Source of the DNA: Tahibacter amnicola
GTDB taxonomy: Bacteria; Pseudomonadota; Gammaproteobacteria; Xanthomonadales; Rhodanobacteraceae
Length of the DNA stretch: 64,000 bases
Assembly (NCBI RefSeq): GCF_025398735.1
Contig: NZ_CP104694.1
Coordinates: forward strand, 5,979,465-6,043,464
Reading direction: 5' to 3'
Position numbers and translations under genes: made by a program. The notes below the pieces were generated by a model. It was not told where the DNA came from. It worked only from the letters and a program-made list of their open reading frames with translations, and did not search any database. Positions within the stretch are counted from its first letter, which is position 1; every line of letters begins with the position of its first letter. Of this stretch, positions 19,166 to 22,062 are shown one piece after another.

Positions 19166-19196
19166 AAAAAAGGCGGTGTGCAGACCGCACACCGCC
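19166..19196 (-). terminator. Intrinsic terminator after ftsZ
   Basis: Read on the minus strand, a perfect 10-bp stem (GGCGGTGTGC / GCACACCGCC, 19187-19196 and 19172-19181) with a 5-base loop is followed at once by six T (19171-19166). This is a textbook Rho-independent terminator, about 150 bases after the ftsZ stop, closing the dcw operon. Confidence 0.9.
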
Positions 19197-19289
19197 CACC
19201 AAAGGACAGAGTCAGGACGATGACGGCGCCTGTCGCCATCGCCGCGTTTTTGCGTTTTCCACGCCCGGCCGTCACGGACACGGTGCCGG

Positions 19290-19349: not shown

Positions 19350-20537
19350 TCAGTCCGCCTGGCGACGCAGGAAGGCCGGGATATCCAGGTAGTCCATGGC
19401 CGGTTCCGCAGCCGTCTGCGTTTCCGCCATCGTCACGTGGCGGGCCGCGGGACCGGCCACACGTGTCGCGGGCTGCTGCGCGTAGTCGACCACTTCGTTG
19501 CCGGTGCCGGTACGCAGCACCAGGCGCGGACGCACCGCCGCTTCTTCCTTGCGCACCACCTGCCGGGCGGCCGCACGGTTGAGGCCCGTCGCCACGACCG
19601 TCACGCGCACTTCGTCCTGGAGTTCCGGATCAAGCGCGGTGCCGATGACGACCGTGGCGTCCTCGCTGGCAAATCCGTGGATGACCTGGCCAATCTCGTC
19701 GAACTCGCGCATCGTGAGGTTCGGGCCGGCCGTGACGTTCACCAGGATGCCGCAGGCCCCGGCGAGGTTGACGTCTTCCAGCAGGGGGTTGTTGATCGCT
19801 GCTTCCGCGGCCGCGACCGCACGGTCGTCACCGCGCGCCGCGCCAGTGCCCATCATCGCCATGCCCATCTCGGACATGACCGTGCGCACGTCGGCGAAGT
19901 CGACGTTGATCAGGCCCGGGCGCGTAATCAGATCCGCAATGCCCTGCACCGCGCCCAGCAGCACGTCGTTGGCCTGCTTGAACGCTGACAGCAAGGTCAC
20001 GTCGCGCCCGAGCACCGTCAGCAGCTTTTCGTTCGGCACGGTGATCAGCGAGTCGACGTGCTGACTCAGATCCTCGATGCCCTTGAGCGCCACCTGCATG
20101 CGCCGGCGGCCTTCGAACGGGAAGGGCTTGGTCACCACCGCGACCGTCAGGATGCCCATTTCCTTGGCCAGCTGCGCCACCACGGGCGCGGCGCCCGTGC
20201 CAGTACCACCGCCCATGCCGGCGGTGATGAAGACCATGTCCGCACCCTGCAGCATCTCCACGATGCGCTCGCGGTCTTCCAGGGCGGCCTGGCGGCCGAC
20301 TTCCGGATTCGCGCCGGCCCCCAGGCCCTTGGTCACGTTGCCGCCCAGCTGCAGCGCCAGCTTCGCGCCGCTGTTCTTGATCGCCTGGGCGTCCGTGTTG
20401 GCACAGACAAAATCCACGCCCTCGACGTGCTGTTGAACCATGTGCGCCACGGCATTGCCACCGCCGCCGCCCACGCCGATCACCTTGATCACCGCATTGG
20501 GTGCCAGTCGTTCTACGAGTTCAAACATGTCTCCCAT
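19350..20537 (-). CDS. ftsZ: Cell division GTPase FtsZ
   Basis: 395 residues. The tubulin homologue that forms the division ring. GTP-binding loop T3 GGGTGTGAAP, the N-terminal GVGGGGGNAV loop and the T7-loop NVDFADVRT are complete. A variable linker (~320-380) leads to the conserved C-terminal peptide DYLDIPAFLRRQ, which binds FtsA and ZipA. A GGAGG ribosome site lies just before the ATG. It is the last dcw gene, separated from ftsA by an unusual 289-base hairpin-rich leader. Confidence 0.98.
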   Translation of the reverse strand: MGDMFELVERLAPNAVIKVIGVGGGGGNAVAHMVQQHVEGVDFVCANTDAQAIKNSGAKLALQLGGNVTKGLGAGANPEVGRQAALEDRERIVEMLQGADMVFITAGMGGGTGTGAAPVVAQLAKEMGILTVAVVTKPFPFEGRRRMQVALKGIEDLSQHVDSLITVPNEKLLTVLGRDVTLLSAFKQANDVLLGAVQGIADLITRPGLINVDFADVRTVMSEMGMAMMGTGAARGDDRAVAAAEAAINNPLLEDVNLAGACGILVNVTAGPNLTMREFDEIGQVIHGFASEDATVVIGTALDPELQDEVRVTVVATGLNRAAARQVVRKEEAAVRPRLVLRTGTGNEVVDYAQQPATRVAGPAARHVTMAETQTAAEPAMDYLDIPAFLRRQAD

Positions 20538-20826
20538 CCTCCGGTGTTATTACGAGCTAATGGTTCGCGCCGCGCGGAACACGTGTTCCACCGACGCCAC
20601 GGAGAACAGGCGCGTTCTCCGGTTGCCGGACGTCTCATCCGGCTCCACGGCCTCCTGCCGTGGCCTTTCCGACCCTTGCCGGCCCAGCCGGCTCCTTCCG
20701 CTCGTTCAGGGGCGAACGGAAGCGACGTCCCTGCCTGGTCCCACACTTCACCGGCTCCCTGCCCTTTCCGGTCGTCCTGACCCTGCTCTTCCAGCGCCGC
20801 GCTGATGCGCGTCGCCGATAACGTCT
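20538..20826 (-). other. Hairpin-rich ftsA-ftsZ intergenic leader
   Basis: No gene is supported here. Distinct inverted repeats follow one another: a 14-bp perfect palindrome GGAACACGTGTTCC (20576-20589); GGAGAAC/GTTCTCC (20601-20607, 20614-20620); GCCGGA/TCCGGC (20625-20630, 20638-20643); CCACGGC/GCCGTGG (20645-20651, 20657-20663); GCCGGC twice (20678-20683, 20687-20692); CGTTC/GAACG (20703-20707, 20714-20718), flanked by a TTCCG (20696-20700) that offers an alternative pairing with CGGAA (20717-20721). All lie upstream of the ftsZ ribosome site, so they would form in the 5' leader of an ftsZ transcript or between cistrons of an ftsAZ mRNA. Their arm sequences differ, so they are not copies of one REP unit. 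Confidence 0.6.
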
Positions 20827-22062
20827 TCAGAAATTGCCCTTGAACCAGTTCATCACCTTGCCCCACAGGCCACCGACCCGCGCCACTCCCGCGCCCGCCG
20901 GCCGACGCACGGCTTCGCGGCCCGCGCCGTACAGCAGCAAGCCGACGCCACTGGCGTGAATCTGGTTGGAAACGACATCAGCCAGGCCGCTGACGTGCTG
21001 CGGCACGCCCAGGCGTACCGGCATGTGGAACAGCTCTTCGGCGAGCTCGACGACGCCTTCCATCTTGGCGCCGCCGCCGGTCAGCACGATGCCGGCGCGG
21101 GTCAGCTCCTCCAGGCCCGAGCGGCGCAGCTCCGCCTGGGCCATCTCGAAGATTTCCTCGTAGCGCGGCTGCACGGCTTCGGCCAGGGTCTGGCGCGCGA
21201 GCCGCCGCGGCGGACGGTCGCCCACGCTGGGCACCTGGATGGTTTCCTCCGCCGTCGCCAGCTGCGCGAGGGCGCACGCGTAGCGGATCTTGATCTCTTC
21301 GGCATTCGCCGTCGGCGTGCGCACGAACTGGGCGATATCGTTGGTGACCTGGTCGCCACCGATCGGCAGCACCGCCGTGTGACGGATCGCGCCCTGGGTG
21401 TAGATCGCCATGTCGGTGGTGCCCGCGCCGATGTCGACCAGGCATACGCCCAGCTCGCGCTCGTCGGAAGTGAGCACCGCACGCGCGGAGGCAATGGCCG
21501 AGGGCACCAGCTCGTCGACGGTCAGCCCGCAGCGCTGGATCGACTTCATGATGTTCTGCGCCGCGCTCGCCGCACCGGTGACCAGGTGCACATTGGCCTC
21601 CAGGCGCACGCCGGACATGCCGACGGGACGACGGATCCCTTCCTGGCCGTCGATCAGATACTCCTGCGGCTCCTTGTAGAGCACCCACCGGTCGCCCGGT
21701 ATCGCCAGCGCGCTGGCCGCGTTGAGTACGGCATCCAGGTCGGCCGGGGTGACCTCCTTGTCACGGATCGGCGCCGTGCCGTGCGAGTTCTCATCTTTTA
21801 TATGGCTGCCGGAAATCGACGCGTAGACCGAGCGAATCTCGCAGCCGGCCATCAGCTCGGCTTCCTCGATCGCGCGCTGGATCGACTGCACCGTCGATTC
21901 GATATCCACCACCACGCCGCGCTTGAGCCCGCGCGAGGCATGCGAGCCGACGCCAATGATCTCCACCGGCTCGCCCGGCTGGAATTCGCCGACGATGGCC
22001 ACCGTCTTGGACGTGCCGATGTCCAGGCCGACGATCAACGATTTCTCGCTCTTGCGATTCAT
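20827..22062 (-). CDS. ftsA: Cell division protein FtsA
   Basis: 411 residues of actin-like ATPase fold: phosphate-1 motif VGLDIGTSKT at the N-terminus, DIGAGTTDM in the middle, and TGGGAKMEG near residue 330. The C-terminal amphipathic helix (VMNWFKGNF) is the membrane-targeting sequence that ties FtsZ filaments to the inner membrane. Starts 3 bases after the ftsQ stop. Confidence 0.97.
   Translation of the reverse strand: MNRKSEKSLIVGLDIGTSKTVAIVGEFQPGEPVEIIGVGSHASRGLKRGVVVDIESTVQSIQRAIEEAELMAGCEIRSVYASISGSHIKDENSHGTAPIRDKEVTPADLDAVLNAASALAIPGDRWVLYKEPQEYLIDGQEGIRRPVGMSGVRLEANVHLVTGAASAAQNIMKSIQRCGLTVDELVPSAIASARAVLTSDERELGVCLVDIGAGTTDMAIYTQGAIRHTAVLPIGGDQVTNDIAQFVRTPTANAEEIKIRYACALAQLATAEETIQVPSVGDRPPRRLARQTLAEAVQPRYEEIFEMAQAELRRSGLEELTRAGIVLTGGGAKMEGVVELAEELFHMPVRLGVPQHVSGLADVVSNQIHASGVGLLLYGAGREAVRRPAGAGVARVGGLWGKVMNWFKGNF

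Follow-up and report, generated by a model that had tools for sequence, protein, structure and literature searches.

A covarying hairpin array between ftsA and ftsZ in one gammaproteobacterial family, a candidate CsrA/RsmA-binding leader

Leaders of the glgC type combine a CsrA site in a hairpin with a second site over the Shine-Dalgarno sequence (PMC7652899; PMC5694010), and one CsrA dimer bridges sites lying 10-63 nt apart (PMC7652899). In CsrB the loop repeats read CAGGA(U/A/C)G, the loops recognised by RsmE read ANGGAN, and most of the selected CsrA ligands had stems no longer than 4 bp (PMC7652899). Control of ftsZ at the RNA level is described for E. coli StfZ, an antisense transcript for which a hairpin array has not been described (PMC9628754). 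In a 2026 preprint on modelled CsrA/RsmA regulons of 16 gammaproteobacteria, ftsZ is named in passing among conserved CsrA/RsmA-linked core functions (PMC12889724); this is a thermodynamic prediction in other species, and the available part of its text names no Xanthomonas and does not mention the array described here. The main texts of the E. coli CsrA CLIP-seq and Legionella RIP-seq papers do not mention ftsZ, and no account of a hairpin array between ftsA and ftsZ was found in the open-access papers searched.

The ftsZ leader described here resembles the CsrA-repressed leader of E. coli glgC (PMC7652899) in having a GGA in an upstream hairpin loop, a GGA overlapping the Shine-Dalgarno sequence and, in most of the family but not in the window, several sites at dimer-bridging spacing. 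Unlike glgC, its target is an essential division gene in an operon-internal gap, its stems are longer, it is conserved in the majority of genera of a single family, and it is known here from sequence. With the sponge RNAs CsrB, RsmZ and RsmW it shares successive hairpins whose loops read CAGGA or ANGGA, but it lies within an mRNA leader, is without a terminator or a called promoter, scores below the Rfam gathering thresholds and has fewer repeats than CsrB. As with StfZ, the candidate RNA-level control of ftsZ would come from the same intergenic position, but in the leader it is sense-strand loops that are conserved. A CsrA-type leader is a known kind of element, of which the ftsZ member and target would be new.

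The ftsA-ftsZ gap and its hairpins

In the window, that is the whole 64 kb stretch of DNA analysed, ftsA (20827..22062, minus strand) is an ORF of 411 aa whose stop codon is at 20827-20829 on the minus strand; an FtsA alignment has matches in 297/299 genomes of the order. The gene served by the leader, ftsZ, is the minus-strand ORF 19350..20528 and is 92-94% identical across 7 genomes of the window genus. Its conserved start MFELVE corresponds to the ATG at 20528, which is the likely ftsZ start because a second in-frame ATG, at 20537, lies right at the Shine-Dalgarno sequence. Measured to the first possible ATG, the gap is 290 nt on the minus strand. The Shine-Dalgarno sequence GGAGG (20538..20542, minus strand) contains a GGA that is itself a candidate CsrA site, and a GGAGG close to the ftsZ start is found in 94/95 gaps of the family, a count for which almost any Shine-Dalgarno sequence would qualify. 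A consensus scan, which can miss promoters, called nothing promoter-like or terminator-like in the gap. Intrinsic terminators within the array were considered and rejected, since a U-tract follows none of the stems and none was called in the gap. Between ftsZ and lpxC, at 19171-19197 on the minus strand, there is a strong intrinsic terminator-like hairpin with a U-tract, which suggests an end of the division-gene transcript at this point.

Six distinct hairpins lie on the mRNA (minus) strand at 20574-20722, inside the gap, bearing out the claim of an earlier note that at least five distinct inverted repeats occupy 20576-20721. They form the densest such cluster in the window: its five stems of 7 bp or longer in 156 nt are the highest count in the 64 kb, and more than three are reached only by segments overlapping the array, in a ranking within the 64 kb. 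The same note had suggested a comparison with shuffled sequence, and in this comparison both folding and stem density exceed the shuffles. The fold of 20570-20725 reaches -82.5 kcal/mol, where dinucleotide shuffles give -70.4±4.1 (z -2.9; equalled by 0/200), and z is likewise -2.9 for the whole gap.

In mRNA order, with loops in square brackets and all on the minus strand, the array begins with Ha (CUUCCGUUCG[CCCCUGAA]CGAGCGGAAG, 20695..20722), of which no counterpart was seen in other genomes of the window genus, and Hb (GCCGGC[UGG]GCCGGC, 20678..20692), which like Ha is not conserved within the genus. H1 (CCACGGC[AGGAG]GCCGUGG, 20645..20663) is the best candidate CsrA/RsmA site; its loop CAGGA is invariant in 8/8 genus genomes, and its distance to the ATG is 125-129 nt in all of them, while the gap ranges from 140 to 298 nt. 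H2 (GCCGGAUG[AGA]CGUCCGGC, 20625..20643) has a purine-rich loop. The loop of H3 (CGGAGAAC[GCGCCU]GUUCUCCG, 20600..20621) is invariant in the genus and is related to the ACGCCA of sister genera. H4 (GUGGAAC[ACGU]GUUCCGC, 20574..20591) stands at a position that varies between genomes; the window's H4 has no GGA loop, whereas in two other gaps (L012 and L149) H4 is a GGA hairpin (GGCGC[GGA]GCGCC and GCCGC[AGGAA]GCGGU). Upstream of the array, a short hairpin with a GGA loop, G0 (GGUC[AGGAC]GACC, 20770..20782), could be read from the sequence; it is specific to the window at its position and is missing from the minimum free energy fold of the whole gap.

A possible pseudoknot was seen by eye between the H3 loop segment CGCGCC (20607-20612) and GGCGCG at about 20566-20575, after H4 on the minus strand. 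The pairing is GC-only and was not seen in sister genera; similar GCGCG segments follow in other genus genomes. Kissing between the loops of H1 (CAGG) and H3 (CCUG) is possible in the window genus and was rejected as a conserved feature, because H3 reads CGCCAG elsewhere.

Covariation and distribution of the array

Searches with FtsZ and FtsA yielded 233 loci that include the gap, and the window's GTDB family accounts for 95 distinct loci. Alignments were made of 8 genus genomes and of 17-49 sequences from sister genera. In the genus, H1-H2-H3 align nearly gapless by sequence alone, RNAalifold recovers the same three hairpins unaided, and 97.8% of cells in the named structure are paired, compared to 32-50% in controls with slid partners. 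Double changes occupy 16 cells versus 4.6 in shuffled alignments, and 0/500 shuffles reach the observed number; the strongest covariation is in H2, where both sides have changed in 5/8 pairs. The sequence-based alignment of sister genera gives a three-hairpin array of H1, H2 and a two-part H3, with double changes in 16/28 pairs (47 cells versus 17.0 shuffled, 0/500), and the 49-sequence alignment agrees on covariation. The shuffles do not keep relatedness and these figures are for that reason not probabilities, but the slid-partner control does keep it and agrees with the shuffle result. One 16-row alignment of clade A (A3) was left out of the pair counts because its H1 and H2 arms fell in different registers. 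The conservation of pairing in relatives, raised in the earlier note as a check, is thereby confirmed with compensatory changes. Comparison between genomes shows that the gap encodes a predicted structured mRNA leader, whose GC-rich hairpins have been maintained by selection for pairing and which ends at the ftsZ ribosome site.

The array is present across one GTDB family, whose named members include Luteibacter, Dyella, Rhodanobacter and Fulvimonas, and its architecture differs between genera. The metagenome-assembled 'Lysobacteraceae bacterium SCN 69-320' belongs to the window genus. With a covariance model built on the sister-genus array, matches were obtained in 50/299 genomes of the order, 49 of them in the window's family with one site each; the sites that were checked against ftsA positions lie between ftsA and ftsZ. 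The genus model finds a single strong site in the window genome (E 3e-12; next best 3.8), and on this ground REP-like repeats were rejected. The array is absent from Xanthomonadaceae and the other gammaproteobacteria examined, and neither the gaps of Xanthomonadaceae (22) nor those of 62 other gammaproteobacteria fold beyond expectation (mean z -0.2 and -0.5, respectively). Covariation, confinement to the ftsA-ftsZ gap and the lack of a match at the gathering score to any of 4227 Rfam families support the suggestion, made in the earlier note, of a hitherto undescribed structured leader RNA.

Some Xanthomonadaceae gaps (L219, L222, L225, L227-L230) hold short tandem stretches, e.g. CAACACCCGCAACACCCG, with a GGCAGGAYGCC-like segment and no hairpin array. 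The gap of Chiayiivirga flava (L043/L180) is 489 nt, its extra length coming from an inverted repeat whose ends read TCATTCCCGCGAATGCGG and which looks like an intergenic mobile repeat.

GGA loops and the function of the leader

Among the 95 distinct gaps of the family, GGA is found in 223/330 predicted hairpin loops, and its reverse complement TCC in 2. Shuffles of these gaps give 28.3±4.1 GGA loops (maximum 37) and 4.7 TCC loops. Control hairpins elsewhere in the window are not biased in this way (13 GGA and 15 TCC among 194), and there is no excess of GGA loops in Xanthomonadaceae or in the 62 other gammaproteobacteria. The earlier description of the repeats as different in sequence holds for the stems; the loops have a motif in common across relatives. 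At three successive hairpins of the 49 sister-genus sequences GGA is held in 44/49, 48/49 and 47/49 loops while the stems covary. The flanks are dominated by CAGGA or ANGGA, with a variable base before GGA, a context in agreement with the CsrB and RsmE sites, and the commonest loop is CAGGAGG. At least one GGA loop was counted in 23/26 genera and at least two in 20/26; three genera of the family have zero by the same count. In Luteibacter, Dyella and Rhodanobacter H1, H2 and H3 all carry GGA loops. Among the conserved hairpins of the window genus GGA loops are confined to H1 (8/8) and H2 (2/8), and the excess there is modest (12 loops versus 2.9±1.8 shuffled). Sister genera in the window clade have AAA at the H2 loop and ACGCCA at the H3 loop; the conserved non-GGA loops of this clade are AAA/AGA in H2 and CGCCWG in H3.

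These observations favour loops of the CsrA/RsmA type, a candidate that the earlier note did not name, over the functions which it listed (transcriptional pausing, mRNA stability or setting the ratio of ftsZ to ftsA). We consider the ftsZ leader a candidate binding platform for CsrA/RsmA, with a probability of roughly two in three. The GGA loops, H1 in the window genus and H1, H2 and H3 in Luteibacter, Dyella and Rhodanobacter, would tether the small dimeric CsrA/RsmA; tethered dimers could then extend to the Shine-Dalgarno GGA and keep the 30S subunit from binding. High free CsrA would accordingly mean less FtsZ synthesis relative to FtsA, and sponge RNAs titrating CsrA would release ftsZ. 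The sign could reverse if CsrA chiefly shields the mRNA from RNase E. Binding and repression by CsrA we infer from the motif and from the known leaders. The gene csrA was found in 78/78 family genomes searched, and the CsrA of the window genome has the usual core sequence. Median spacing in the family is 28 nt from one GGA loop to the next and 42.5 nt to the Shine-Dalgarno GGA; in the window, the distance from H1 to the latter is about 113 nt, which exceeds the linear bridging range of 10-63 nt. Many stems are 7-9 bp and the loops are mostly of 4-5 nt rather than 6. The family's predicted stems are stronger than those of selected CsrA ligands, which counts against binding by CsrA.

Matching FtsZ supply to nutrient state is a long-standing question. 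The array suggests that the amount of FtsZ may be tied to growth state, a link that we infer by analogy. If true, a covarying leader of CsrA type present family-wide just ahead of ftsZ would connect division in bacteria such as Dyella, Luteibacter and Rhodanobacter directly with the global Csr/Rsm switch; it would also represent an undescribed RNA family, one that makes a simple, testable prediction.

An unlikely alternative, and one still deserving some weight, is an element for mRNA processing or stability, in which the hairpins define where the ftsA-ftsZ transcript is cleaved and protect the 5′ end of its ftsZ portion, raising FtsZ over FtsA, with loop sequence being of minor importance. 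The stems are strong, have no U-tract and stand between two genes whose expected outputs differ widely; this, the gap without promoter-like or terminator-like sites, and H2 and H3 mostly lacking GGA in the window genus are all consistent with such an element, but the restriction of GGA to loops of the sense strand (223 vs 2) while the stems drift is left unexplained. The non-GGA loops of the window clade could also, in a rather doubtful extension of the CsrA/RsmA platform, indicate a composite RNA in which GGA hairpins have been partly replaced by hairpins with AAA/AGA and CGCCWG loops that recruit a second partner; as part of an abundant essential mRNA such a leader could in addition be a CsrA sponge, so that division-gene transcription would feed back on the Csr network.

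That AGGAG-like loops serve as extra Shine-Dalgarno sequences, holding the 30S subunit near ftsZ as ribosome standby or decoy sites, appears improbable. The commonest loop, CAGGAGG, is indeed Shine-Dalgarno-like, but it is GGA and not Shine-Dalgarno complementarity that is kept: 76/142 distinct GGA hairpins match the anti-Shine-Dalgarno complement over 4 nt or less, and H2 loops vary between AUGGAU, AAGGAC and GGGACA. It is very improbable that the GGA loops form part of the core of a ligand-binding riboswitch, or of a site through which a division-cluster protein regulates its own synthesis. The position fixed relative to the ATG and the conserved non-GGA loops of the window clade would fit such a role, but the hairpins are independent, without a shared junction or conserved core, their architecture varies between genera, and no alternative terminator or anti-Shine-Dalgarno helix was seen. 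Neutral debris of decayed repeats or chance GC-rich palindromes, to which the GC-rich genome and the lack of conservation of Ha and Hb in the genus might point, is scarcely credible, being contradicted by compensatory changes in both alignments (0/500 shuffles), the fold z of -2.9 and the single site per genome.

CsrB searches of 37 genomes gave no match. Two families of the CsrA-sponge clan CL00106 resemble the array weakly: PrrB_RsmZ scores 15.6 of the 44 bits of its gathering threshold against the window array, and RsmW, the only Rfam match at E up to 1 among the tested sister-genus loci, scores 25.7 of 52 bits inside the sister-genus array. These sub-threshold matches count little because RsmZ gives similar hits elsewhere in these genomes and in control genomes. 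Outside the ftsZ region, sub-threshold PrrB_RsmZ matches were observed at 348-487 in L249, 1501-1647 in L248 and 1501-1625 in L250 (E about 1e-4 to 3e-5 per genome), and these are candidates for the family's own CsrA-sponge RNAs.
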